A stretch of DNA of 64,000 nucleotides from Kaistia defluvii (lineage in GTDB: Bacteria > Pseudomonadota > Alphaproteobacteria > Rhizobiales > Kaistiaceae). Both the position numbers and the translations under genes were made by a program. Under the pieces are notes generated by a model, which was not told the origin of the DNA, did not search any database, and was given only the letters and a program-made list of their open reading frames with translations. Positions 181 to 38,814 of this stretch are shown piece after piece (positions within the stretch are counted from its first letter, which is position 1; each line of letters starts with the position of its first letter). The stretch lies in the NCBI RefSeq assembly GCF_026343955.1, contig NZ_JAPKNI010000003.1, positions 1-64,000 of the forward strand. The letters run 5' to 3'.

Positions 181-687
181 CTAAGCCGTCCAGACTTCCG
201 GGCGCGCCTCGCCGGTGCCGAGTTCGGCCAGCAGTTCCTCGATCACGGTGACCACCAGCTTGTGGTCCTCCGCCTGCGGCAGGCCGGAGACGGTCGCGGT
301 GCCGACCATGCCGACATTGCGGACCAGGATCGGGAAGGCGCCGCCATGCGGGAAGTATTTCAGCGGATCGACCAGTTGCGCTGTGGCGAAATCGACGCCC
401 TTCACCCGCGCCTTCTGGCCCATGTAGAATGAGGAATGGCCGTAGCGGCGCACGACCGCCGTCTTGCCGGCGACCCAGAACTCGTTGTCGGCCGAGGTGC
501 CTTCCAGCGCGCAATAGAACAGGCGCTGCTCGCCTCGCGAAATCTCGACGACAATGGAGAGATTGTCCTGCCGCGCGCGTTCGATGATCCGCGTGCCGAG
601 CGTGATCGCGGTGTCATTGTCGAAACGGTCGAAGACCAGCCGCTTTTCCTGGTCGAGAAGTTCCTGCAACAGGGCTTCGTCGCTCAT
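181..687 (-). CDS. UPF0303 / heme-degrading-domain-like protein
   Basis: 168-residue cytoplasmic protein of the UPF0303 family (related to the GlcG/HbpS fold; eukaryotic member Ybr137w). The sequence shows the family's layout: an acidic N-terminal helix, then a central alpha/beta domain with GHSSFYMGQK and KYFPHGGAFPI stretches. The start at 687 is chosen because GGAGGGGGAA lies just upstream; a longer reading to 768 has no ribosome site and would run into the preceding gene. It is the last gene after the ABC-importer genes, separated by 25 bases, so it is probably co-transcribed. The family's molecular role is not settled; heme or flavin degradation is only an annotation hint. Confidence 0.85.
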   Translation of the reverse strand: MSDEALLQELLDQEKRLVFDRFDNDTAITLGTRIIERARQDNLSIVVEISRGEQRLFYCALEGTSADNEFWVAGKTAVVRRYGHSSFYMGQKARVKGVDFATAQLVDPLKYFPHGGAFPILVRNVGMVGTATVSGLPQAEDHKLVVTVIEELLAELGTGEARPEVWTA

Positions 688-712
688 TCGTTCCCCCTCC
701 ATGAGATCCCGA

Positions 713-1429
713 TCATCGCGCAGCCGCAGCGCCTGCCGCAAGGGCCGGCCGATCGAAGGTCGCGGCAATCCGCCCCTCCGCCATGCGGGCCGCGCGGTCG
801 CACATATGGCCGATCACGTCCGGGTCGTGGCTGACCAGCACGAAGGTCATGCCGAAGCGCGCCCTGAGCGTGACGAGCAGGTTCAGGATCTCGGCCTGCA
901 CCGACATGTCGAGCGCCGAGGTCGGCTCGTCGAGCAGCAGCAGTTTCGGCCGCAGCAGCAGCGCGCGGGCAATCGCGATGCGCTGGCGCTGGCCGCCTGA
1001 AAGCTGGTGCGGATAGCGCGCCGCGACATCCGGGCCGAAGCCGACCTCGGCCAGCGCCTCGGCGACACGCTGGTCCGGATTGTCGAGGCCGTTGACGACG
1101 AGCGGCTCGCGCAGGGCCCGGCCGATCCTGTGGCGCGGATGCAGCGAGGCGTAGGGATCCTGGAAAACCATCTGCACCTCGCGGCGCAGCGTGCCGGTGA
1201 AGCGGCGGCGCGGGGCGACGCCCTGCCCCAGCAGCGCCATGGAACCATGCCAGTCGCGGTTCAGCCCGGCGATGACGCGCAGCAAGGTGGACTTGCCGCA
1301 GCCCGACGGCCCGAGCAGGCCGAAGGTCTCGCCGTCCTCGATGGCCAGCGTAATGCCGCGCAGGATGTGGCGGCCGACATCCTGGTCCCGGAAGGTAACG
1401 TTGAGATCGCTGATATCGACGAGGCTCAT
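713..1429 (-). CDS. Peptide/nickel-type ABC transporter ATP-binding protein (second ATPase)
   Basis: 238-residue ABC ATPase of the DppF/OppF/NikE group. Walker A is GPSGCGKST, the signature is LSGGQRQRIAIARAL and Walker B runs [12 protein letters not shown], so it should hydrolyse ATP. It is shorter than DppF (usually over 320 residues) and lacks the C-terminal EHPYT-type tail, resembling NikE in size. The start at 1429 overlaps the stop of the upstream ATPase gene by ATGA, showing translational coupling. It pairs with the 1426-2268 product under the two permeases 2261-4203. Confidence 0.92.
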   Translation of the reverse strand: MSLVDISDLNVTFRDQDVGRHILRGITLAIEDGETFGLLGPSGCGKSTLLRVIAGLNRDWHGSMALLGQGVAPRRRFTGTLRREVQMVFQDPYASLHPRHRIGRALREPLVVNGLDNPDQRVAEALAEVGFGPDVAARYPHQLSGGQRQRIAIARALLLRPKLLLLDEPTSALDMSVQAEILNLLVTLRARFGMTFVLVSHDPDVIGHMCDRAARMAEGRIAATFDRPALAAGAAAAR

Positions 1430-2268
1430 GCGCCAGCCCCCAGGCTGACGCGGTCGAGCGTCGGCAGCAGCGTGCCGAAGGTTGCGGGCGAAGGCCGGCA
1501 CGCCCACAGCGTCTTCGTATACGGATGTTCCGAGTTTGCCAGTTCGGACGCCGGCAGGCGATCGACAATGTCGCCGCGATACATGACGAGCGCCCGGTCG
1601 CAGAAGCGCGCCACCTGGTCGAGGTCATGGCTGATCAGGATCAGCCCCATCTCCCGCTCGTCGACGAGCTTCAGCATCAGATCGAGCACCTGGTCGCGCA
1701 GGTCGCGGTCGAGCGCCGAGGTCGGTTCATCGGCGATCAGCAGGCGCGGTTCGGCGATCAGCGTCGCCGCCAGCATCACGCGCTGGCCCATGCCGCCGGA
1801 AAGCTGGTGCGGGTAGGAATGATAGGCGCGCAGCGGATCCGGCAGGCCGACGGCCTCCAGCATGGCGAGCGCCCGCTCGCGGCGTTCGGCCTTCTTGGCG
1901 GCGGTGTGCAGCTTCAGAGGTTCCTCGACCTGACGGCCAATACTCATCACCGGATCGAGCGCGAATTTCGGATCCTGCAGCACGAGCCCGATCCTGGAGC
2001 CGCGCCAATGCTTCCATTGCCGGGGCGAGAGCGCGGTCAGATCCTCGCCATCCAGCATCAGCCGGTCGGCAGTGACGCGGCCGGGCTTGGCCACCAGCCC
2101 GATCAGCGCGCGCGCCGTCATCGATTTGCCGGAGCCGGATTCGCCGACGAGGCCGAGCTTTTCCGCGCCCATGGCAAAGGAGATGCCGTGCACGACTTCG
2201 ACCGGCCCGCGATCGGACGGGAAGCGGACGGAGAGCTCTTCGACGTTGAGCAGGGTCGGATCAGCCAT
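1426..2268 (-). CDS. Peptide/nickel-type ABC transporter ATP-binding protein (first ATPase)
   Basis: 280-residue ABC ATPase of the DppD/OppD/NikD group. Walker A reads GESGSGKSMT (serine then methionine after the lysine), the signature is LSGGMGQRVMLA and Walker B is [12 protein letters not shown]. The tail contains EHPYTKTLW, the family's C-terminal motif, though the tail is truncated compared with DppD (about 325). Overlaps the permease gene upstream by 8 bases and the next ATPase by 4, so the five transport genes form one tight operon. Confidence 0.92.
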   Translation of the reverse strand: MADPTLLNVEELSVRFPSDRGPVEVVHGISFAMGAEKLGLVGESGSGKSMTARALIGLVAKPGRVTADRLMLDGEDLTALSPRQWKHWRGSRIGLVLQDPKFALDPVMSIGRQVEEPLKLHTAAKKAERRERALAMLEAVGLPDPLRAYHSYPHQLSGGMGQRVMLAATLIAEPRLLIADEPTSALDRDLRDQVLDLMLKLVDEREMGLILISHDLDQVARFCDRALVMYRGDIVDRLPASELANSEHPYTKTLWACRPSPATFGTLLPTLDRVSLGAGA

Positions 2269-3127
2269 TGCGCGGGTCCATCAGGTCACGGAGCCCGTCG
2301 CTCAGCAGGTTGAAGGCGAAGCTGGTGAGCAGGATCGCCGCGCCCGGCGTTGCCGCCACCCACCACTGGTCGAAGATCACCTGCGTGCCTTCGGCGACCA
2401 TGGCGCCCCATTCGGGCGTCGGCGGACGGACGCCGAGGCCGAGAAAGCCCAGGCCGGCGGCGATCAGGATGATGCCGCCAAGATCGAGCGCCATGCGCAC
2501 GATGGCGCCAGGCAGTACGAGCGGCAGTACATGGCCGAACAGCAGGCGCGGGCCAGTGATGCCCATCATCTCGGCCGCGGCGAGATAGTCGCTCTTGCGC
2601 AGCGCCACCGTTTCCGAGCGCGTCTGGCGCGCATAGGCGGGCCAAGCGGTCAGCGCCAGGGCCAGCGCGCCGTTGACGAGGCCGGCGCCCAGCACGGCGA
2701 CGAAGGCCAGCGCCAGCACCAGCTTCGGGAAGGCCATGGCGATGTCGGTGATGCGCATCAGGATGCGCTCGACGATGCCGCCATAGAAGCCGGCGACGAT
2801 GCCGATGGCGATGCCGATCGGAGTCGTCAGCAGGATGACGATGGCCAGCAGCATCAGGGTCGGTCGGGTGCCGTAGATCAGGCGGGACAGCAGGTCGCGG
2901 CCGAAGCCGTCCGTGCCGAACCAGTGCGCCGCCGAGGGCGGCATCAGCCGGTTGGCGACGTCCTGCGCGATCGGGTCGTAGGGCGCGAGAAACGGCGCGA
3001 ACAACGCCACAAGCAGGATCAGCACCACCAGTGCGGCGCCGATCGCGGCCGTTGGCGAGCGGCGGGCGAAGCTGGCCAGCGACAGACGATTGGGAGCGAC
3101 GGCGACGGTCAGCGGCAGATTGGTCAT
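2261..3127 (-). CDS. Family-5 ABC transporter permease (DppC-like)
   Basis: 288-residue inner-membrane permease of the DppC/OppC type. After a basic N-terminus a first membrane segment ends with DPIAQD, followed by the family's GTDGFGRDLLSRLIYG motif; a further block of membrane segments follows, with the EAA-loop region around YLAAAEMMGITGPR. Start overlaps the end of the DppB-like gene by 4 bases. Together with the 3124-4203 product it forms the translocation channel. Confidence 0.92.
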   Translation of the reverse strand: MTNLPLTVAVAPNRLSLASFARRSPTAAIGAALVVLILLVALFAPFLAPYDPIAQDVANRLMPPSAAHWFGTDGFGRDLLSRLIYGTRPTLMLLAIVILLTTPIGIAIGIVAGFYGGIVERILMRITDIAMAFPKLVLALAFVAVLGAGLVNGALALALTAWPAYARQTRSETVALRKSDYLAAAEMMGITGPRLLFGHVLPLVLPGAIVRMALDLGGIILIAAGLGFLGLGVRPPTPEWGAMVAEGTQVIFDQWWVAATPGAAILLTSFAFNLLSDGLRDLMDPRNG

Positions 3128-4203
3128 GACAGCCTCGGATCGACGATGCGGGCGAGAATGTCGGTGATCGCGTTGACGATCACGAAGCAGACGCCGATGA
3201 CCAGCGTGCCGCCGAGCACGGCCGGCATGTCCGAGGCGAAGATCGCCGTCGTCATGTAGCGGCCGAGGCCCGGCCAGCCGAACACGGTTTCGGTCAAGAC
3301 CGCGCCTTCCAGCAGCGTCGCATAGGCGAGCGCGATCACCGTCAGCACGGTTCCGGCGACATTGGGCAGCAGATGGGTCAGCATCAGGCGAACCTCGCCG
3401 ACACCCTTGGCGCGCGCCGCGACGGCATATTCCTTGCCGAGTTCGCCGAGCAGGCTCGCCCGCGTCAGCCGCGAGATCGAGGCGAGCGAATGGATGGCGA
3501 GGACCGATGCCGGCAGCACGAGATGCGACAGCGTATCGAGGAACGAACCCTCCTCGCCCCAGAGCGCCGTGTCGATCAGGTAGAAGCCGGTCACCGGCGT
3601 CACCGTATAGGCATAGATGTCGCTCAGGCGGCCGGGTCCGGCAGTCCAGTGCAGGCGGGCATAGAACAGCAGCAGGAACAGGAGGCCGAGCCAGAAGATC
3701 GGCACCGAATAGCCGATCAGGGAGACGATCCGGACGATGCCGTCAATCAGCCCGCGTGGTCTCAGGGCCGCGATGACGCCGAGCGCCACGCCGATCAGTG
3801 CGCCGAAAAGGATGGCGACGGTGGCGAGTTCCAGGGTTGCCGGGAAAACGCGAAGGATATCGGTGAAGACGGGCTGGTTGGTCGACCAGGAGGTGCCGAG
3901 ATTGCCGGTCAGCACATGGCCGACATAGGCGGCGAAGCGCTGCGGCAGCGGATCATCGAGGCCGAGCGTCTGGCGCGCTGCCTGATAGGTCGCCTCGGTC
4001 GCCTTGTCGCCGGCCAGATGCAGCGCCGGATCGGCCGGCGAAAGCTCGGCCAGCGCGAAGGTGACGACCATCAGGCCAAGCAGGGTTATCGCCAGCGTCA
4101 CCAGCCAATTGGCGACAGCCGACACATATGAAAGTCCCCGCCGGCCGCGAGGCCGACGGGGAAGCAGTTCAGGGGCCGCGACGCGGCCGCCAGTATCTGT
4201 CAA
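3124..4203 (-). CDS. Family-5 ABC transporter permease (DppB-like)
   Basis: 359-residue inner-membrane permease of the DppB/OppB type, with a first membrane segment at about 29-51 and the conserved LGLDDPLPQRFAAYV region after it, and an EAA loop near GKEYAVAARAKGVGE. It carries a 25-residue basic, proline/arginine-rich N-terminal extension, so an internal start is possible. The stop-to-start junction with the binding-protein gene is directly adjacent (4203/4204), as expected for one transcript. Confidence 0.9.
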   Translation of the reverse strand: MTDTGGRVAAPELLPRRPRGRRGLSYVSAVANWLVTLAITLLGLMVVTFALAELSPADPALHLAGDKATEATYQAARQTLGLDDPLPQRFAAYVGHVLTGNLGTSWSTNQPVFTDILRVFPATLELATVAILFGALIGVALGVIAALRPRGLIDGIVRIVSLIGYSVPIFWLGLLFLLLFYARLHWTAGPGRLSDIYAYTVTPVTGFYLIDTALWGEEGSFLDTLSHLVLPASVLAIHSLASISRLTRASLLGELGKEYAVAARAKGVGEVRLMLTHLLPNVAGTVLTVIALAYATLLEGAVLTETVFGWPGLGRYMTTAIFASDMPAVLGGTLVIGVCFVIVNAITDILARIVDPRLS

Positions 4204-29787: not shown

Positions 29788-30093
29788 CTAGTCCGCGAGA
29801 AAGTCCGCCATTTCGGCGTTGTAGAAGACCTTGGTGCGCGGGCCGGTCTGGATCGGCTCGAGAAGGCTGACGCATTTCTGGTAGTGCGGCGTGCGGCGGT
29901 GTTCCTCGAGGGCGGCCTCCGACCTGAAGACCTCGTAGATCAGGAACTTGTTGCCATCGTCAGGGTCGCGCAGCACGTCGAAGCGCAGATTGCCCGGCTC
30001 CTGGCGCGTGCCTTCATAATTGATGCGGAAGGCCTCGATGAAATCATCGGCATGGCCCGGCTTGACCATGATGGTCACCATCTGGATGAGCAT
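29788..30093 (-). CDS. lsrG: Autoinducer-2 degrading protein LsrG (ABM domain)
   Basis: 101-residue antibiotic-biosynthesis-monooxygenase-fold protein. It resembles enteric LsrG closely: EGNLRFDVL-type core (PGNLRFDVLRDPDDGNKF), YEVFRSEAALEEHRRTPHY and LEPIQTGPR. LsrG isomerises phosphorylated AI-2 so that it is removed as a signal. AAGGAG is 6 bases before the start. It follows lsrK by 59 bases on the same strand; the start at 30987 of a longer frame is a shadow of lsrK. Confidence 0.92.
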   Translation of the reverse strand: MLIQMVTIMVKPGHADDFIEAFRINYEGTRQEPGNLRFDVLRDPDDGNKFLIYEVFRSEAALEEHRRTPHYQKCVSLLEPIQTGPRTKVFYNAEMADFLAD

Positions 30094-30152
30094 AATCACT
30101 CCTTTGCAAAGAGATTGGCGCAGCGCCCGAAGCGCCGCGAAACGTTGGAAGC

Positions 30153-31718
30153 TCAGAGGCCGGGGGCCTTCCACATCGAGGTGGTGACGCCCTCGTCGAC
30201 GAGCTGGAGCTGCAGCGCATAGGCGCGCGCCCACCGCTCGCCGGCCTCGTCGTAGATCGCCTTGTGGCCGAGATCCGGCTCGAAATGCCGGTCCCAGCGC
30301 ACCCAGGATTCGGCGGTCGAAACGAAATCCCGCTGCAGGCCGGCGCCGATCGCGGCGGCGGCGGCGCAACCGAGCGCGGTCGCCTCCTTGACCACCGGCG
30401 TCACCACCGGCAGGCCGGTCGCGCTCGACAGGATCTGCGCCCAATGGGCCGACTTGGCCGCACCGGCCGCGAAGACGATCTGCTTGGGCGTGACGCCGGA
30501 GAGCTTGAAGATCGCGGCGAGGTTTCGCGCCGCGACGATCGCGGCGTTTTCCTGCAGGGCGCGGAAGATCGCCGCCTTGCCGGACTTTTCCGGATCGATC
30601 GAGAGGTTCAGCAGCGACGGCGCGGCGTGGTACCACTTGCCGTAATGCATCACGTCGGAGAACACCGGGATGATGCCATAGGCGCCGGGCGGGATATGCG
30701 CCGACTGCGCCTCCAGCAGCGAATAGGCATCGCCACCCGTCGCGGCCGCCTCCGCCACCTCCGCCGCGCCAAAACTGTCGCGGAACCAGCGCATCACGAT
30801 GCCGACGAAGAAGCTGATCGCCTCGGCCTGGTTGAGGCCGGCGACGACATGCGGATTGATGCGCAGATCCATGGACGGGTCGGTCAGCGTCTGGTCGACA
30901 TTGACGATCTGCTGCCAGAAGGTGCCGCCGAGCACCGCGCAATCGCCCTTGTTGACGACGCCGAGCCCGGCCGTGCCGATCTGGCAATCCCCGCCACCGG
31001 CGACGACCTTCGTGCCGGCCTGCAGGCCCGTCGCCTCGGCCGCCGCGGCCGTGACATGGCCGATCACCGTGCCGGACTCGACCGTCTCCGGGAAGATGTC
31101 GTCACGCATGCCGGCCCAGCGCATCGCCTCCGGCATCCACTTGCGCGCGCCCAGGTCCAGCAGGCCGGTGGTGCCGGCGTTGGAAGGCTCGCTGACGAGC
31201 ACGCCGGAAAGCCGGGCGAGGACCCAGTCGGACAGCATGCTGATCCGATGCATGCGGTCATAGACGTCCGGCAGGTTGCGCTTCAGCCAGAGCAGGCGCG
31301 GCAGCGCGCCGAGCGCGAAGGTCTGGCCGGAATGCTGATAAAGCCGGGCCTCGAGTTCGGGAAAGGCCTGCTTCAGTTCGCGCACTTCGCTGTTGGAGCG
31401 GCTGTCGACATTGGCGCAGGCCCAGATCTCCCGGCCGTCGGAATCATAGACCACCAGCGCCTCGCGCATGCTGGTGGCGCTGACGGCGGCGATGTCGCCG
31501 GCCGAGATGCCGGCGCTGGCGATCGCCTGGCGGATGGCACGGGCGAGATGGGCCCAGTTGCCCTCGACATCGAAATCCATCGAGCCTTCGAAGCGCGGAT
31601 CGGGCTTGTGCCACCATTCATGCTGGGCGGCGGCCACCTGGTTGCCGGCCGCGTCGAAGACGACCGCGCGGCCGCTTCCCGTCCCGGCGTCGACCGCCAG
31701 AAGATATGTTCCCGCCAT
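30153..31718 (-). CDS. lsrK: Autoinducer-2 kinase LsrK
   Basis: 521-residue FGGY-type kinase that phosphorylates imported AI-2 (DPD), producing the LsrR ligand. The N-terminal phosphate motif is LAVDAGTGSGRAVVFD; SMREALVVY, ACANVDSRS, DPSNAGTTGLLDL-like (EPSNAGTTGLLDL), GGTFWQQIVN, WYHAAPSLLNLSIDP and the closing TTSMWKAPGL match the enteric enzyme almost residue for residue. Second gene of the minus-strand lsrRKG transcript, 10 bases after lsrR. Confidence 0.95.
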   Translation of the reverse strand: MAGTYLLAVDAGTGSGRAVVFDAAGNQVAAAQHEWWHKPDPRFEGSMDFDVEGNWAHLARAIRQAIASAGISAGDIAAVSATSMREALVVYDSDGREIWACANVDSRSNSEVRELKQAFPELEARLYQHSGQTFALGALPRLLWLKRNLPDVYDRMHRISMLSDWVLARLSGVLVSEPSNAGTTGLLDLGARKWMPEAMRWAGMRDDIFPETVESGTVIGHVTAAAAEATGLQAGTKVVAGGGDCQIGTAGLGVVNKGDCAVLGGTFWQQIVNVDQTLTDPSMDLRINPHVVAGLNQAEAISFFVGIVMRWFRDSFGAAEVAEAAATGGDAYSLLEAQSAHIPPGAYGIIPVFSDVMHYGKWYHAAPSLLNLSIDPEKSGKAAIFRALQENAAIVAARNLAAIFKLSGVTPKQIVFAAGAAKSAHWAQILSSATGLPVVTPVVKEATALGCAAAAAIGAGLQRDFVSTAESWVRWDRHFEPDLGHKAIYDEAGERWARAYALQLQLVDEGVTTSMWKAPGL

Positions 31719-31728
31719 AGCCCTCTCC

Positions 31729-32676
31729 CTAATCCTTCAGGTCCATCAGACCCAGCGCCGTCGTTTCATCCGTGATCAGGATGCCGACGAACTTCCCCTT
31801 GAGTGCGGCGTGGATGGCCGGCACCTTTTCCAGCCCGCCGGCGGCCGCCACGACCTTCTCGGCGCGCGACAACGCGGCGAGCTTCACGCCGATGACGCGG
31901 TCGTGCAGCTGCAGGTCGAGCACTTCGCCCTTGTCGTTGAAGAACTGGCAGAGGATGTCGCCGACCGCGCCCTTGCGGCGCAGCGGCTCGACCTCGTCCG
32001 GCGTCACATAGCCCGAGCGCACCACCGTCGAGGTGCCGGACAGTTCGCCGATGCCGACCAGCTGGTAGGAAGCGTTCAGCGCCATGTCGAGCAGATTGGC
32101 GACCGCCGGCTCCGAGGACAGGTTCTTCGCGACGTCCGGGTCGCGCACCACCAGCGGGGCGGGCACGAGATGCACGCTGCTGCCCCAGTTCGCGGTGCGC
32201 ATGCCATCGACATAGGTGCCGACGCCGCCGGTCAGGCTGACCAGCCCGATATTGCGCTCATTGGCGAGATGGCCGAGGCGCTGGATGGCGTTGCTGACGG
32301 TGGCGCCCCAGCCGACCGCGAGCAGGTCGTCGGGCTGCAGCCGCTGCATCAGGAACTGCGCCGCCGCCTGCCCCAGCCGGTCGCTGGCGCTCTGCTCGGG
32401 AAGTTCCGGCACGACATAGGCCTCGAGCAGGCCATAGCGGGCCTTGATCTCGCGCTCCAGCGACAGGCAGCCCTGGTAGCGCGAATTGATCCGGACCTGG
32501 ATGATGCCGGACCGTCGGCCGCTTTCCAGCAGGCGCGACACCTTGATCCGCGACATGGCGAGCTTTTCGCCGATCTCGTTCTGCGTCAGGCCGTCATTGT
32601 AATAGTACCAGGCAATGCGCGTGAGGATCTCCTCGTCGGCGTCGCCATAGCTCCACTCGTTGCTTTCCAAGGCCAT
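31729..32676 (-). CDS. lsrR: LsrR, AI-2-phosphate-responsive repressor (SorC/DeoR type)
   Basis: 315-residue regulator: an N-terminal helix-turn-helix (about 15-60; WYYYNDGLTQNEIGEKLAMS then RIKVSRLLESG) and a sugar-phosphate-sensing domain (about 65-315) with LTGGVGTYVDGM, RKGAVGDILCQFF and LITDETTALGL as in enteric LsrR. Unliganded LsrR represses lsr promoters, and phospho-AI-2 releases it. The start 32676 is preferred (GGAGGGG 10 bases ahead) to 32709. Divergent from lsrACDB. Confidence 0.93.
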   Translation of the reverse strand: MALESNEWSYGDADEEILTRIAWYYYNDGLTQNEIGEKLAMSRIKVSRLLESGRRSGIIQVRINSRYQGCLSLEREIKARYGLLEAYVVPELPEQSASDRLGQAAAQFLMQRLQPDDLLAVGWGATVSNAIQRLGHLANERNIGLVSLTGGVGTYVDGMRTANWGSSVHLVPAPLVVRDPDVAKNLSSEPAVANLLDMALNASYQLVGIGELSGTSTVVRSGYVTPDEVEPLRRKGAVGDILCQFFNDKGEVLDLQLHDRVIGVKLAALSRAEKVVAAAGGLEKVPAIHAALKGKFVGILITDETTALGLMDLKD

Positions 32677-32917
32677 GCGCCGAGCACCCCTCCTGCGTTC
32701 TGTGATCATATCGATATCGTAAAAACATTTGATCCGTCAACAGGACAGGCTGCGCTTGTTCCGACGATCCGACGCAACCGTGGTAACTCCACTGAAATAG
32801 CCGTATTGCAGCGCAATATCGACCACCGCGATCGCGAACGCCGAATCTGACCATATTGACGCCCTCCAAATCTTGTGATCACTTGAGCGATAAGAGAGAC
32901 ATCTGAACAGGTGCGGA
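32677..32917. promoter_or_regulatory. Divergent lsrR / lsrA control region
   Basis: 241 bases. The octamer TGTGATCA occurs twice, at 32701-32708 next to lsrR and at 32874-32881 next to lsrA; the second copy extends to the perfect palindrome GTGATCAC (32875-32882). A TTGACG -35 candidate lies on each strand: minus 32740-32735 and plus 32856-32861, so the lsrA-side palindrome would overlap the -10 region. These are good LsrR operator candidates, but the enteric LsrR site is different enough that this remains a prediction. Confidence 0.5.
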
Positions 32918-34414
32918 ATGACTGAGGACACAGCGGCCGGGAGGGCTGCACAGCTCACCGGCATATGGAAATCCTACGGTCCCGTCCCGGTCCTGAAGGG
33001 GGTTTCGCTCGCCTTGCAGAAGGGCGAGGTCCATGCGCTGCTGGGCGGCAACGGCGCCGGCAAGTCCACGCTGATGAAGATCATGTCCGGCCTGGTCCCG
33101 GCCAATGCCGGCTCGATCGAGATCCATGGCGAGCCCCTGACGCATGCGTCCCCCGCCCTCGCCCAGCAGCTCGGCCTGTACCTGGTGCCGCAGGAAGCGC
33201 ATATCCTCGGCAACCAGTCGGTGCTCGAGAACATCTGCCTCGGCCTGCGTCCCTCGCCGCGCTCCCTGCGCAAACGGGTCGAGCAGCTGATCGCCGAACT
33301 CGCCGTCACGCTCGACCTCGACGCGCAGGCGGCGACGCTGGAAATCGCCGAGCGGCAGATCGTCGAGATCCTGCGCGGCCTGATCCGCGATGCCCGCGTG
33401 CTGATCCTCGACGAGCCGACCTCCGCGCTGACGCCGTTCGAGGTGCACGCCCTTTTCCAGCGCGTCCGCAAGCTTCAGGCCCAGGGCGTCGGCATCTTCT
33501 TCATCTCGCACAAGCTGCGCGAGATCCGCGAGATCTGCGGCACGATCAGCGTGCTGCGCGACGGCGCGGTGGTGCTGAGCGGACCGCTCGACACCTATAG
33601 CGACGCCGAGATCATCGATGCGATGAGCCGGGTCGCCACCGGCGACGCCCCACTCGCTTCCACCCGATCCGGCAGCGATCACGGTCCCGTTCGCCTCGCG
33701 GTGCGCAAGCTGAGCGGCGAAGGATTTCGCGATATCAGCCTCGAGGTCCGCGCCGGCGAAGTGCTGGGCCTTGCCGGCGTGGTCGGGGCCGGCCGCACGG
33801 AATTCTCCGAGACGCTGTTCGGCCTCCGCCGCCAGAGCGCCGGCTCCGTCACGCTGGACGGCGTCGAGCTCATCCGCCGCTCGCCGCGCGGCTGCATCGA
33901 TGCCGGACTGGTCTATCTGCCGGAAGACCGGCAGCAGAACGGCCTGTTCCTGGAGGCGCCGCTCTACTGGAACGCCTCGTCCTACCTGATCCACCGCCTG
34001 CCCTTCCTGCTCCGGCCCGGCCGCGAGCGCAGCCTGTTCAACGGTTTTCGCCAGAGCATGGGCATCAAGTGCACCGGGCCCGGCCAATCGGCCAAGGCGC
34101 TCTCGGGCGGCAACCAGCAAAAGGTGCTGATGGCGAAATGCCTGTCGGCCAAGCCGAAGGTGCTCGTCCTCGACGAGCCGACCCGCGGCGTCGACGTGGC
34201 GGCGCGCAACGACATCTACGCCCTGATCCGCCAGCTCGCGGCCGAGGGCGTCGCCGTCATCCTGATCTCGTCCGATTTCGACGAGATCGAACTCCTGGCC
34301 GACCGGGTGGTCGTCATGGCCTTCGGCCGGCTCGGCGGCGAATTGACCGAAAACATCAGCGTCGACGCGATTGCCCGCCTGGCATTCGGCGCAGGGGAAC
34401 AGGCCCATGCTTAA
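32918..34414 (+). CDS. lsrA: AI-2 ABC importer ATP-binding protein LsrA
   Basis: 498-residue double ABC ATPase of the ribose-importer (CUT2) class. First half: Walker A GGNGAGKST (about 43-51), LEIAERQIVEILR signature variant and LILDEPTSALTP. Second half: VVGAGRTEFSE in place of a full Walker A, then ALSGGNQQKVLMAKCL and LVLDEPTRGVDV. As in other CUT2 ATPases only one site is canonical. First gene of lsrACDB; overlaps lsrC by 8 bases. Confidence 0.92.
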   Translation: MTEDTAAGRAAQLTGIWKSYGPVPVLKGVSLALQKGEVHALLGGNGAGKSTLMKIMSGLVPANAGSIEIHGEPLTHASPALAQQLGLYLVPQEAHILGNQSVLENICLGLRPSPRSLRKRVEQLIAELAVTLDLDAQAATLEIAERQIVEILRGLIRDARVLILDEPTSALTPFEVHALFQRVRKLQAQGVGIFFISHKLREIREICGTISVLRDGAVVLSGPLDTYSDAEIIDAMSRVATGDAPLASTRSGSDHGPVRLAVRKLSGEGFRDISLEVRAGEVLGLAGVVGAGRTEFSETLFGLRRQSAGSVTLDGVELIRRSPRGCIDAGLVYLPEDRQQNGLFLEAPLYWNASSYLIHRLPFLLRPGRERSLFNGFRQSMGIKCTGPGQSAKALSGGNQQKVLMAKCLSAKPKVLVLDEPTRGVDVAARNDIYALIRQLAAEGVAVILISSDFDEIELLADRVVVMAFGRLGGELTENISVDAIARLAFGAGEQAHA

Positions 34415-35450
34415 TCTCGTCGCCCGCAACCGCGTCCTCATGCTGCTGGCGGTGATGGCGGCGGCTTGCCTCGCCCTCGGCTTCGCCGCGCCCGGCTATC
34501 TCTCGGCCGCCACCGCCTCGGTAATCCTGTCGAACAGCCTGGTGCTGCTGCTGATCTCGCTCGGCACCATGCTGGTGATCCTGACCCGCAACATCGACGT
34601 GTCCAGCGGCTCGATCCTGGGCCTCAGCGCCGCGACCCTCGGCCTGTCGCTCAATGCCGGCGCCAGCCTGCCGCTGGCGATCGCGCTCTGCATCCTGACC
34701 GGCGTCGTCGCGGGCGCCGTCAACGGCCTGCTGGTCGCCTATCTCCGCATCCCCTCGATCGTCGCGACGCTCGGTACGCTCGGCCTCTATCGCGGCATCA
34801 TGCTGATCCAGACCGGCGGCCGCTGGATCGAGGACCTGCCGCAGGGCCTGAAGGCGCTGGCAGGGGGCATCGGTTTCGGCGTCTCGATCCTGACCGTCGC
34901 CGTACTTGCCCTCTTCGCGCTCGCCTGGATCTTCCTGCGCCGCACCCGCTTCGGCCGCTATTTCTATGCCGTGGGCGACAACCGCGACGCCGCCCACCAT
35001 CTCGGCGTGCCGGTCCGGCGCGTGCAGTTCACCGCCTTCGTCGCGTCAGGCGCCTGCGCCGCGATCGCGGGACTGATCTTCGCGGCGCAGATCGGCTTCA
35101 TCCCCAACCAGGCCGGCAATGGCGTCGAACTGAAGGCGATCGCCGTCAACGTGCTCGGCGGCGTCAGCCTGCTCGGCGGCAGCGGCTCGGTCGCCGGCGT
35201 CTTCACCGCCGCGATCTTCCTGACCTCGATCGACAGCGCGCTCGTGTTCCTGAAGATCCCGGCCTTCTGGAACGACTTCATCGCCGGCGCGATCCTGCTG
35301 ACCGTGCTGCTGCTCGACGGGCGCATCCGCCTGCTGATCGACCGGCGCATCCGCGCCCGCCGCTACGCCGTGCATGACCGCGTGCCGCAGGCTGCCGAGA
35401 CGCCCGGCAACCATGCCGACAAGACCCTGCTGGCGGAGGCAAGCCGATGA
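34407..35450 (+). CDS. lsrC: AI-2 ABC importer permease LsrC
   Basis: 347-residue inner-membrane permease of the CUT2 family with eight to ten helices. Motifs [16 protein letters not shown] and [15 protein letters not shown] are typical of LsrC/RbsC proteins. Start 34407 overlaps the lsrA end; its stop overlaps lsrD by ATGA. Between lsrA and lsrD in the order lsrA-C-D-B as in enteric operons. Confidence 0.9.
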
Positions 35451-36448
35451 AAAACGTACTCTTCCGCTGGGAAACGGCGCTGTTCCTGATGCTCGTCGCC
35501 GAGCTGGCCATTTTCGGCGTCGTCAATCCGCGCTTCCTCAATGTCGGCAACCTGATCTACGGCACCTCGGATTTCGTCCAGATCGGCATCGTCGCGCTGC
35601 CTCTGACGCTGGTCATCATCGCCGGCGGCATCGACGTTTCCTTCGCTTCGACCATCGGCCTCTGCGCCATCGTCTTCGGCGTCTCGAACTTCTTCGGCAT
35701 ACCGCTGCCGCTGGCGATCGGCATGGCGCTGGTCGCCGGCGGACTGGCCGGGCTTCTCAACGCCACCGTCATCCACCTGTCGAAGATCCAGCCGCTCGTG
35801 GTCACACTGGGCAGCCTTTATCTGTTCCAGGGCGCCGCCACGGTGCTGTCGGGCGTCGTCGGCGCCGGCGGCTATGAGGGCATCGGCAACTTCCCGGCCA
35901 GCTTCACCGCCTTCGGCTATGCCGAGATCCTCGGCCTGCCGGCGCCGCTCGCGGTCTTCCTCGCGCTCGCCGCCGTGCTGATCGTGCTGCTGCATTTCAC
36001 CCGCTTCGGCCGCGCCGTGTTCCTGATCGGCCAGTCGGCGGAGGCCGCGCGTTATTCCGGCCTGTCGGTCGGGACGACCCAGACCATCACCTACGTCATC
36101 ACCGGCGTCTGCGCGGCGATCGCGGGGCTCGTCATGTCGGCCTATTTCGGCTCGGCCCGCGTCGATCTCGGCGCCGCGACGCTGCTGCCGGCCGTCACTG
36201 CGGCCGTGCTCGGCGGCGCCTCGATCTATGGCGGCCAGGGCTCGATCCTCGGCACGCTGCTCGCGACATTCGTCATCGGCTACCTGCAGCAGGGCCTGCA
36301 GGCGAGCGGTGTCCCAAGCCAGATTTCCAGCGCGCTTTCGGGAGGTTTGCTGGTTGCGGCGGTCGCATTGCGCCACGGAAGCGCGCTGCTGGCCGATTTT
36401 ATCGCTGTCGCCCGACAGAAACGAAACGATCGGGCGTCGGCCTTTTGA
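35447..36448 (+). CDS. lsrD: AI-2 ABC importer permease LsrD
   Basis: 333-residue partner permease of the CUT2 family. The [18 protein letters not shown] segment and [15 protein letters not shown] loop match the family, and it pairs with LsrC to form the AI-2 channel. Its start lies in the ATGA overlap with lsrC; the next gene lsrB begins 13 bases after its stop. Confidence 0.9.
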
Positions 36449-36461
36449 GGAGGAAACGAAA

Positions 36462-37493
36462 ATGACGATGAAATTCCTGAAGTCCGGACTGATGGCGGCA
36501 ACGCTGCTCGCAGGCACCCTGCTCGCCTCGGGCGCGGCGCAGGCTGAATCCCAGATCGCCTTCATTCCGAAGCTGGTCGGCGTCGGCTTCTTCACCAGCG
36601 GCGGCGCCGGCGCGGTCAAGGCCGGCGAGGAAGTCGGCGCCAAGGTCACCTATGACGGCCCGACCGAGCCCAGCGTCTCGGCGCAGGTGCAGTTCATCAA
36701 CAACTACGTAAACCAGGGCTACAACGCGATCATCGTGTCGTCGGTCTCGCCGGATGGGCTTTGCCCGGCGCTGAAGCGCGCCATGGAGCGCGACGTGCTG
36801 GTCATGACGTGGGACAGCGACGTCAATCCGGACTGCCGCAGCTACTACATCAACCAGGGCACCCCGGATCAGCTCGGCGGCCTGCTGGTCGACATGGCGG
36901 CGGAAGGCGTGACCAAGGAGAAGGCCAAGGTGGCTTTCTTCTATTCCAGCCCGACCGTGACCGACCAGAACGCCTGGGCCGAAGCCGCCAAGGCGAAGAT
37001 CGCCAAGGAGCATCCGGGCTGGGAGATCGTCACCACCCAGTACGGCTACAATGATGCGCAGAAGTCGCTGCAGACGGCCGAGAGCATCCTGCAGACCTAT
37101 CCCGACCTCGACATCATCATCGCACCGGATGCCAACGCCCTGCCGGCCGCCGCCCAGGCCGCCGAGAACCTGAAGCGCGCCGAGGGCGTGAACATCGTCG
37201 GCTTCTCGACGCCCAACGTCATGCGGCCCTATGTCGAGCGCGGCACGATCAAGCGCTTCGGCCTCTGGGACGTGACCCAGCAGGGCAAGATCGCGGTCCA
37301 TGTCGCCGAGCACGTGCTGAAGAACGGCAAGATGAAGGTCGGCGACAAGCTCGAAATCCCGGGCGTGGGCACCGTCGAAGTCTCGCCGAACAGCGTCCAG
37401 GGCTATGACTACGAAGCCGAAGGCAACGGCATCATCCTGCTGCCGGAGCGGACCGTGTTCACCAAGGAAAACATCGGCAAGTTCGACTTCTAA
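36462..37493 (+). CDS. lsrB: AI-2 binding protein LsrB
   Basis: 343-residue periplasmic binding protein with a signal peptide (1-28, ending GAAQA). It is very close to enteric Lsr[16 protein letters not shown] (K37 is the AI-2 contact lysine), [20 protein letters not shown] (contact aspartate and neighbours), [33 protein letters not shown] and the closing NIGKFDF. These ligand residues separate LsrB from ribose-binding proteins, so AI-2 uptake is a safe call. GAGGAGGAAA before the start is a strong ribosome site. Confidence 0.95.
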
Positions 37494-37507
37494 TTCGCAA
37501 AACCCAT

Positions 37508-37535
37508 GCGGGCGGCTCCATCCGGGGCCGCCCGC
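37508..37535 (+). terminator. Hairpin between lsrB and the aldolase gene
   Basis: Perfect 9-base stem GCGGGCGGC / GCCGCCCGC with a 10-base loop, 15 bases past the lsrB stop. It is followed by TCCATTTCTCC rather than a full T run, so it may partly terminate and lower aldolase expression while stabilising the upstream lsrB message. Confidence 0.5.
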
Positions 37536-37566
37536 TCCATTTCTCCAGAACAACGGATCCAGACCC

Positions 37567-38814
37567 ATGCAAAGCCGCTGGAACGGCGACGAGGCCAATC
37601 GTTTCATCCAGGCAGCGCTTGACGCCGGCCAGAGCGAGGCCCTCGGCCTTCGCATCTATACCTCGCGCATCATCGGCCAGGATCCCGATCTCGTCCTGCA
37701 TGGCGGCGGCAACACCTCGGCCAAGGTGACGGACGCCGACGGCAACGAGATCATGCACATCAAGGGCAGCGGCTGGGATCTCGACACGATCGAGGCGCCG
37801 GGCCTGCCGGCGGTGCGGATGGAGCCGCTGATCGCCGCGCGCGACGGCGGCAAGCTCTCCGATCCCGAAATGGTGGCGCTGCTGCGCGCGGCCCTGCTCG
37901 ACCCGACCTCGCCCAATCCGTCCGTCGAGGCTCTGCTGCACGCCTTCCTGCCCTTCCGCTTCGTCGACCACACCCATGCAACGGCGGCCCTGGCGCTCGC
38001 CAACCAGCCCGACATGCGCGAGACCGTGCAGCGCGTCTATGGCGACCGCCTCGCCTGGGTTCCCTATGTCATGCCGGGCTTCGATCTCTCGATCGAGGGC
38101 GACAAGGTCTATCGCGACCACCCCGGCTGCGAGGGCCTCTGGCTGGAGAACCATGGCCTGTTCAGCTTCGCCGACACGGCCGAAGCCTCCTACGCGCTGA
38201 TGATCGAGTTCGCGACGATGGCCGAGCAGGAACTCGCGCGCGCCGGCGTCGTGCTGGAAGGCCCGCAACAGAGTGACCGCGAGGCCGACCCGGCGCTGGC
38301 GGAACGGCTCACCGCCGCCCTCACCCGTCCCGGCTCGCCCTTCGCCAAGGGGCTTTCGCTCGACTACCGCTCGACGCCGGCGATCCGCCGTCACGTCTCC
38401 AAGCCGGAGGTCGCGGACATCGCCCTGCGCGGCACGGTCACGCCCGACCACGTCATCCGCATCAAGCCGTTCCCGCTGATCCTCGAGGCCGGCGCATCCG
38501 AGGCCGATATCGACCAGGCGCTGGCCGGCTATATCGAGCGCTACACCGCCTATTTCGAACGCAACGCCGCCAAGGCGTCCGAACCCAAGACGATGCTCGA
38601 CGCCTATCCGCGCGTCGTGCTGGTCCGTGGCGAGGGCATGTTCGGCCTCGGCACCAATGCCAAATCGGCGAAGATCGCCGGCGACCTCATCGAACAGTCG
38701 ACGCGCGTCATGAATGCCGCCGAGGCCTATGGCCGCTTCACGCCGATCTCGGAGCCGGACCTGTTCGACATGGAATACTGGTCGCTGGAGCAGGCCAAGC
38801 TGAAATCGGCCTGA
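37567..38814 (+). CDS. Class II aldolase, RhaD-type aldolase domain alone
   Basis: 415-residue zinc-dependent aldolase of the AraD/FucA fold, corresponding to the N-terminal aldolase half of the bifunctional rhamnulose-1-phosphate aldolase/alcohol dehydrogenase (YuxG type). Visible: LVLHGGGNTSAKV near 43, HTHATAALALAN (metal histidines) near 138, WLENHGLFSF (third histidine) and KTMLDAYPRVVLVRGEGMFG in the C-terminal half. The usual dehydrogenase half is missing. It occupies the place of lsrF downstream of lsrB, suggesting cleavage of the phospho-AI-2 product, which is an inference. Confidence 0.85.
   Translation: MQSRWNGDEANRFIQAALDAGQSEALGLRIYTSRIIGQDPDLVLHGGGNTSAKVTDADGNEIMHIKGSGWDLDTIEAPGLPAVRMEPLIAARDGGKLSDPEMVALLRAALLDPTSPNPSVEALLHAFLPFRFVDHTHATAALALANQPDMRETVQRVYGDRLAWVPYVMPGFDLSIEGDKVYRDHPGCEGLWLENHGLFSFADTAEASYALMIEFATMAEQELARAGVVLEGPQQSDREADPALAERLTAALTRPGSPFAKGLSLDYRSTPAIRRHVSKPEVADIALRGTVTPDHVIRIKPFPLILEAGASEADIDQALAGYIERYTAYFERNAAKASEPKTMLDAYPRVVLVRGEGMFGLGTNAKSAKIAGDLIEQSTRVMNAAEAYGRFTPISEPDLFDMEYWSLEQAKLKSA

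Follow-up and report, generated by a model that had tools for sequence, protein, structure and literature searches.

The closest described relative of the locus considered here is the enteric Lsr system for autoinducer-2 (AI-2; Escherichia coli lsrACDBFG-lsrRK), whose thiolase LsrF yields dihydroxyacetone phosphate (DHAP) and acetyl-coenzyme A (PMC7828210; papers are cited here and below by PubMed Central accession, for the excerpts available to us). According to the same excerpts, what becomes of AI-2 where LsrB occurs without LsrF is undetermined; several Clostridium are named. The lsr region of Rhodobacter sphaeroides and Sinorhizobium meliloti was printed in 2008 as lsrBDCARKG, without an F, and the word 'aldolase' is absent from the main text of that paper (PMC2561040). 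Here we describe the lsr locus of Kaistia defluvii (a 4.9 Mb genome in 21 contigs), at positions 29788-38814 of a 64,000-nucleotide stretch, which we call the window (contig NZ_JAPKNI010000003.1, positions 1 to 64,000). Its importer, kinase, isomerase, regulator and binding protein are orthologous to those of the enteric system, but a class II aldolase (Ald) follows lsrB instead of lsrF, and lsrG follows lsrK on the other strand. The lsr locus on pSymB of S. meliloti has the same order as that of Kaistia, with an Ald (71% identical) after lsrB and lsrG after lsrK; plasmid records label the gene 'class II aldolase'. Our favoured reading, held with a little more belief than doubt, is that Ald ends AI-2 processing after LsrG, most likely giving DHAP and acetate, the chemistry being inferred.

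The locus is bounded by the stop codons of lsrG (29788) and of the aldolase gene (38814). A minus-strand arm (29788-32709) carries lsrG, lsrK and lsrR, and a plus-strand arm (32918-38814) carries lsrA, lsrC, lsrD, lsrB and ald. An earlier sequence-only reading had listed LsrR, LsrK, LsrG, LsrA, LsrC, LsrD and LsrB as all present and lsrF as missing; we indeed found these genes, eight with ald, and no match to LsrF anywhere in the locus. The place that lsrF would occupy is taken by ald (37567-38814, plus strand, 415 residues), 73 bp after lsrB.

Other lsr loci were collected with a peptide-based LsrK scan, taking the best 80 of 280 relatives; the survey is not exhaustive, because the scan requires conserved peptides. 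By title, 28 of these loci are alphaproteobacterial and 52 gammaproteobacterial. Samples of 297 Rhizobiaceae genomes (18 with LsrK, 5 already in the scan) and 295 genomes of the Roseobacteraceae family (8 with LsrK, 1 already in the scan) brought the set, with the Kaistia genome itself, to 49 distinct alphaproteobacterial LsrK loci. In a sample of 385 genomes of the class, LsrK (E <= 1e-100) was matched in the Kaistia genome only, which offered nothing to compare.

Ald was present in 39 of the 49 loci, LsrF in 3 and neither in 6, with one cut by the contig end; both enzymes together were found in none of the 48 readable loci. This is the outcome of the survey for an lsr-linked aldolase without lsrF that the sequence-only reading had proposed. 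Within the scan, the 28 alphaproteobacterial loci comprised 25 with Ald (L021 being cut by the contig end), one with LsrF (L081, Cohaesibacter) and two with neither (L024, L037), and every one had a match to LsrG. The 52 gammaproteobacterial loci had LsrF in 40, LsrG in all and Ald in none. LsrG likewise accompanied Ald wherever the flank of an Ald locus was read, and the spacing from lsrB to ald was 64-122 bp across the 25 scanned Ald loci. Stand-alone Ald at 57% identity or more occurred in 13 of the 297 Rhizobiaceae genomes, and each of the 13 has lsrK at a distance of 5.8-6.7 kb on that contig; five of the 297 have lsrK but no such Ald (Fisher p = 5e-19 for the association, uncorrected for kinship). 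Among the matches listed, those of 50% identity or less lay mostly in open reading frames of ~680-940 codons, the size expected for bifunctional aldolase-dehydrogenases. In S. meliloti 1021 the lsrK match is in two pieces (L100, 2615-4173); in strain 2011 it is in one.

The loci fall into five types. Type A, an LsrACDB-type system with Ald, accounts for 35 of 49; seven of these (G468, G475, G569, G629, G680, G683 and G686) were counted from the positions of lsrK and ald with the transporter unmapped, although for a plasmid record whose coordinates match those of G629 the locus was read. Type B (4 of 49) combines LsrK, LsrR, LsrG and Ald with another ATP-binding cassette (ABC) transporter, at L197 (3198-12560), L200 (310-9797), L219 (2008-11194) and L221 (9394-17524); in these loci LsrG adjoins Ald on the same strand (with a 360-base gap in L221). 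Type C (L081, L220, L222) has LsrACDB with LsrF and without Ald, type D (L024, L037, L203, L218, L198, L199) has neither enzyme, and type E (L196) is a contig too short to read. The two type-B LsrK proteins that were tested, of the four, score over the AI-2 kinase cut-off. L197 also carries a gene for an LVIVD-repeat protein.

An LsrK tree of 54 rows drew on 28 type-A loci out of 35; its gammaproteobacterial LsrF loci numbered 10, namely that of E. coli plus 9 of the scan's 40. On it, type B joins LsrF-bearing and LsrF-elsewhere loci (support 98/96), and the LsrF-bearing Cohaesibacter is basal to type A (99/97); the Ald/LsrF label requires two changes, and the 'neither' label three inside the type-A clade. 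The direction of the Ald/LsrF changes is left unfixed by the weak split between gamma- and alphaproteobacteria (82/22) and the distant outgroup. In the Ald tree, type-A Alds lie on one side of a branch (95/98) and the two included type-B Alds on another (100/100), and the stand-alone forms are jointly separate from the bifunctional ones (93/91), with two kinase-paired Alds, described below, on long branches. Position, mutual exclusion, linkage, the retention of the module without LsrACDB and the two label changes together support Ald as a substitute for LsrF, as judged from sequence comparison. The proposal of the sequence-only reading that the aldolase replaces LsrF stands in this form, with 0/48 loci carrying both enzymes, 13/13 linkage and LsrG kept; it does not stand as strict replacement, because the Ald clade includes four loci lacking both enzymes and four of the 39 Ald-bearing genomes have a true LsrF elsewhere.

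Translation of Ald most likely starts at 37567, a position common to its relatives, rather than at the longer open reading frame's start at 37405. The protein matches PF00596 (83.7 bits) and positions 1-428 of the 685-residue bifunctional aldolase/dehydrogenase model NF006192 (462.6 bits, not reaching the cut-off of 639), with the rhamnose model TIGR02632 behind at 259 bits; it ends after the aldolase part, without a short-chain dehydrogenase fusion. It had been described earlier as matching only the aldolase half of RhaD/YuxG, which is right in kind as to the half-match, although the closest bifunctional family is NF006192 and not the rhamnose one. From alignment, the presumed metal ligands are H135, H137 and H196, the catalytic residue is E121 and the phosphate loop is GGGNTS (46-51). 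All of these are kept in the narrower alignments, and all but Glu121 in a wider one. An AlphaFold2 model (predicted local distance difference test 90, predicted template modelling score 0.88) has as its best PDB match 3m4r, a class II aldolase domain, with further matches to FucA, L-ribulose-5-phosphate 4-epimerase, pyruvic oxime dioxygenase, YgbL, RhaD, 6btd and others. Because these span several activities, the fold alone leaves the reaction of Ald unfixed. We assign Ald to the class II aldolase superfamily, the predicted His ligands, acid, phosphate loop and fold all being present. The C-terminal half (~240-415) lacks both a separate Pfam hit and a clear assignment; residues 348-399 very weakly resemble fuculose-phosphate aldolase (E 1.5) and may be a degenerate second aldolase domain.

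RhaE/RhaEW (YuxG), the rhamnulose-1-phosphate aldolase/lactaldehyde dehydrogenase, has an aldolase part homologous to Ald with the three His ligands and the phosphate loop in common, and has Asp in place of Glu117 of RhaD (PMC3870299). Ald differs in lacking the dehydrogenase half, in having Glu121 for that Asp and in lying outside a rhamnose locus. The genome's own RhaEW, encoded on contig C1 (NF006189, 1224 bits) beside its own ABC genes, is 31-34% identical to Ald and has Asp at the place of Glu121. We considered Ald as the rhamnose enzyme and rejected this, since the genome has its own RhaEW and Ald carries Glu rather than Asp.

By orthology with the enteric system, LsrACDB would import AI-2, LsrK would phosphorylate 4,5-dihydroxy-2,3-pentanedione (DPD), and LsrG would shift the carbonyl of the resulting phospho-DPD (P-DPD) to give 3-hydroxy-2,4-pentanedione 5-phosphate (P-HPD). 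Read from the phosphate end, P-HPD would be a 2-ketose-1-phosphate, CH2OP-CO-CHOH-CO-CH3, which is the substrate type of FucA, RhaD and RhaE; LsrG would in this way make a substrate fit for a FucA/RhaD-type enzyme. P-HPD would equally be 5-deoxyribulose-1-phosphate with its C4 alcohol oxidised. We suggest that the metal of Ald would bind the DHAP half and that the C3-C4 bond (C2-C3 of DPD) would be split, with DHAP as one product and acetate as the other. Acetate would be this other product because the released carbon is a (hydrated) ketone rather than an alcohol, and as no aldehyde would form, the absence of the dehydrogenase half would be accounted for. Since LsrF, too, yields DHAP, the feedback that DHAP reportedly exerts on LsrR could continue. 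The specific proposal that this class II aldolase hydrolytically cleaves P-HPD to acetate and DHAP is tentative, and we place it somewhat below an even chance.

The nearest precedents for the proposed cleavage are DrdA, which cleaves 5-deoxyribulose-1-phosphate to DHAP and acetaldehyde (PMC6079011), and 3-OtnC, an Aldolase_II-domain protein that frees DHAP from a 3-oxo 4-phosphate acid (PMC12540250). DrdA resembles Ald in being a class II aldolase, takes a five-carbon methyl ketose-1-phosphate to DHAP, and appears among the Ald fold matches (6btd, by title DrdA of Bacillus thuringiensis); unlike Ald it is about half the length and a Mn enzyme whose other product is acetaldehyde, and it is only 16% identical in the fold alignment. 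Ald and LsrF would share the same step and DHAP as a product, but LsrF (NF006081), a class I aldolase-like thiolase, is a triosephosphate isomerase-type barrel with a Schiff-base Lys (PMC2728841) and depends on coenzyme A (CoA), and family-model searches detected no homology between LsrF and Ald, the latter having the PF00596 domain and a class II fold. Acetate and DHAP were formerly proposed as the products of LsrF itself (PMC2728841).

Several observations weigh against Ald as the enzyme that ends AI-2 processing. Four loci in the Ald clade (L024, L037, L203, L218) have neither enzyme, and whole-genome searches for L037, L203 and L218 found no stand-alone Ald and no true LsrF, which we define as at least 56% identical to E. 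coli LsrF. Where both are gone, the last step would be dispensable or done otherwise. In 12 of the 52 gammaproteobacterial loci, too, lsrK and lsrG are neighbours and neither LsrF nor LsrB is in view, and four of the 39 Ald-bearing genomes (G388, G389, G396, G410) have a true LsrF in a separate locus. The Ald subfamily itself extends beyond AI-2, to judge from two more stand-alone Alds (53% identity; G499, G553) that each lie directly downstream of a gene for an FGGY kinase with 38% identity to LsrK; against the AI-2 kinase model the two kinases reach 506 and 512 bits, slightly short of the cut-off of 528, and no LsrG match was found at either pair. Finally, we know of no described reaction of the class II aldolase fold that is a hydrolytic beta-diketone cleavage.

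The loci with neither enzyme differ in what they hold at the Ald position. L037 retains a 52-residue Ald remnant, L203 has an integrase core domain gene after lsrB, near the contig start, and L218 has an array of clustered regularly interspaced short palindromic repeats shortly after lsrB, at the place of Ald (~400-3360; 41 copies in 61-base steps, repeat unit ~29 bases). The genomes of L198 and L199 hold LsrF elsewhere. Apart from that of L024, every type C, D or E genome (nine in all) was searched whole, and none contained a stand-alone Ald; in eight the search found bifunctional relatives, none above 48% identity, and in the ninth (G411) nothing. For L037, L203 and L218, these bifunctional aldolase-dehydrogenases reach 47-48% identity to Ald.

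The kinase-paired Alds without LsrG and the loci with neither Ald nor LsrF would also be expected if LsrK or the transporter took a second substrate, a deoxyketose, with Ald cleaving that ketose-1-phosphate and AI-2 halting at the LsrG product. The next-best family model of LsrB after its own, that of a rhamnose-binding protein, points the same way, and S. meliloti reportedly gained no growth from AI-2 in the 2008 work of Pereira. We nevertheless consider this unlikely, as Ald accompanies LsrG in two locus types and never LsrF in one locus, and the genome has a separate rhamnose aldolase-dehydrogenase on C1. Alternatively, Ald could serve AI-2 through a reduced intermediate: a dehydrogenase encoded elsewhere would reduce P-HPD to 5-deoxypentulose-1-phosphate, which Ald would split to DHAP and acetaldehyde. 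That would be an ordinary retro-aldol needing no new chemistry, and precisely such a cleavage of 5-deoxyribulose-1-phosphate is what DrdA carries out (PMC6079011). Ald lacks the dehydrogenase half that its bifunctional relatives have, however, and we found no conserved reductase in the locus. A short-chain dehydrogenase gene downstream in the window (38970), which we considered as the lost half, is not conserved beside the loci, having only a 29% match (L026) in the 28 alphaproteobacterial scan loci, and we regard the reduced route as quite improbable.

An action of Ald before LsrG, on P-DPD or its isomers with release of a two-carbon phosphate, had been suggested by the sequence-only reading. 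The keto groups of P-DPD lie away from the phosphate end, so that it is not a 2-ketose-1-phosphate, and LsrG is kept in every Ald locus with its flank read; we give this very little weight, even though an account of previous studies of phosphorylated AI-2 refers to 2-phosphoglycolic acid as a product (PMC2728841). Least probable of all, in our estimate, is that a true LsrF or an LsrF-like enzyme elsewhere finishes AI-2 processing and that Ald is unrelated to it. The true LsrF in four Ald-bearing genomes and elsewhere in the genomes of G563 and G623 would fit, yet 35 of the 39 Ald-bearing genomes have none. In Kaistia, a search of the full genome for lsrF, as the sequence-only reading had asked, found no true one: PF01791 has four matches, and E. 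coli LsrF finds a single protein, 32% identical, on contig C17 (334710-335534). This paralogue scores higher with an ADH-synthase model (128.7 bits) than with that of LsrF (99.9 bits), both below cut-off. It keeps Lys203 and has Val in place of Asp251, the two residues being catalytic candidates in LsrF (PMC2728841), and its neighbours are the ABC, LsrR-like and FGGY-kinase genes of another sugar locus; on these grounds we rejected it as a hidden LsrF. The C17 locus resembles a 'putative Lsr system in Rhizobiales' in which a fructose-bisphosphate aldolase is given as an 'LsrF synonym' (PMC3420918).

LsrF (67-73% identical) is present in 14 of the 297 Rhizobiaceae genomes, 3 of which have LsrK. 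In four loci (L130, 9236-12143; L131; L132; L207), a true LsrF (69% to E. coli) stands directly before a bifunctional aldolase/dehydrogenase, whose best model in L130 is NF006196, and neither LsrG nor a close LsrK is in view; the LsrF of such loci apparently works in a pathway distinct from that of AI-2. In Celeribacter (L133, 6045-10181), LsrF (71%) follows a gene for an LsrK-like kinase (27%) in an ABC locus separate from its Ald-type lsr locus.

The remaining Kaistia genes were assigned with NCBIfam models. The cut-offs were passed by LsrK (30153-31718, minus strand, 521 residues; NF008187, 838.8 bits against 528; 54% to E. coli LsrK), LsrA, the ABC transporter ATPase (32918-34414, plus; NF011967, 699.1 against 586), and LsrB, the AI-2 binding protein (36462-37493, plus; NF011937, 630.7 against 384; 77% to E. 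coli LsrB). They were not reached by the P-DPD isomerase LsrG (29788-30093, minus, start codon at 30093, 101 residues; NF007791, 108.7 against 135; 48% to E. coli LsrG), the regulator LsrR (31729-32709, minus, start codon uncertain; PF04198; NF011947, 320 against 486) or the permeases LsrC (34407-35450, plus; NF011961, 383 against 388) and LsrD (35447-36448, plus; NF011612, 382.7 against 500), yet each of these models is its protein's best match. LsrK is closest, among named relatives, to those of Kaistia terrae (95%) and K. adipata (94%), and its C-terminus is TTSMWKAPGL, as had been noted. The further statement that LsrB keeps its AI-2 contacts agrees with our comparison: at the six residues that we take to be the contacts (K37, D118, D168, Q169, P222 and A224), all are identical to E. 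coli. A gene for an AI-2E family transporter (PF01594; 28697-29752) adjoins lsrG; we rejected it as a component of the system, since one weak, distant match (L027) is all that the 28 alphaproteobacterial scan loci yield.

The divergent control region between lsrR and lsrA (32710-32917) contains a palindromic TGATCA box (32876-32881), and a second (32703-32708) overlaps the annotated lsrR start. The box occurs in this gap in 26 of 28 loci, the window included (chance level not estimated), and our guess is that these are candidate LsrR sites. A stem-loop in the lsrB-ald gap (37508-37535, plus strand) has a 12-bp stem with no clear T run and folds at -30.9 kcal/mol; against shuffled sequences its z is -4.0, compared with -2.0 to -3.1 in five other loci, and 27 lsrB-ald gaps fold at -21.5 to -39.8 kcal/mol unshuffled. 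It may act as an attenuator or mRNA-stability hairpin. LuxS was found in none of the 28 alphaproteobacterial lsr genomes searched, Kaistia's own included, with all three enteric controls positive; these species would consume a signal not made by a LuxS of their own.

In the excerpts available (PMC3420918, PMC2728841, PMC7828210, PMC3870299, PMC6079011, PMC12540250, PMC2561040, PMC12855168, PMC12268683), a coverage that lacks key AI-2 papers, we found no aldolase tied to AI-2 or named in an alphaproteobacterial lsrACDB locus, and a literature search returned no paper combining 'autoinducer-2 kinase' and 'class II aldolase'. As far as can be seen, the systematic exclusion between Ald and LsrF is new, as are the type-B loci, the twofold change of label on the LsrK tree and the chemical interpretation. 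They give the alphaproteobacteria one 415-residue candidate enzyme, with the LsrG product as predicted substrate and DHAP and acetate as predicted products. If the proposal is true, AI-2 signalling would have a CoA-independent end in two distinct lineages of LsrK, and one of these would also have exchanged the AI-2 importer for another ABC transporter, and carbon-carbon hydrolase activity would be new to the class II aldolase fold. In some Rhizobium-related soil and marine bacteria, an unrelated metal-dependent aldolase probably does the job of LsrF by different chemistry.

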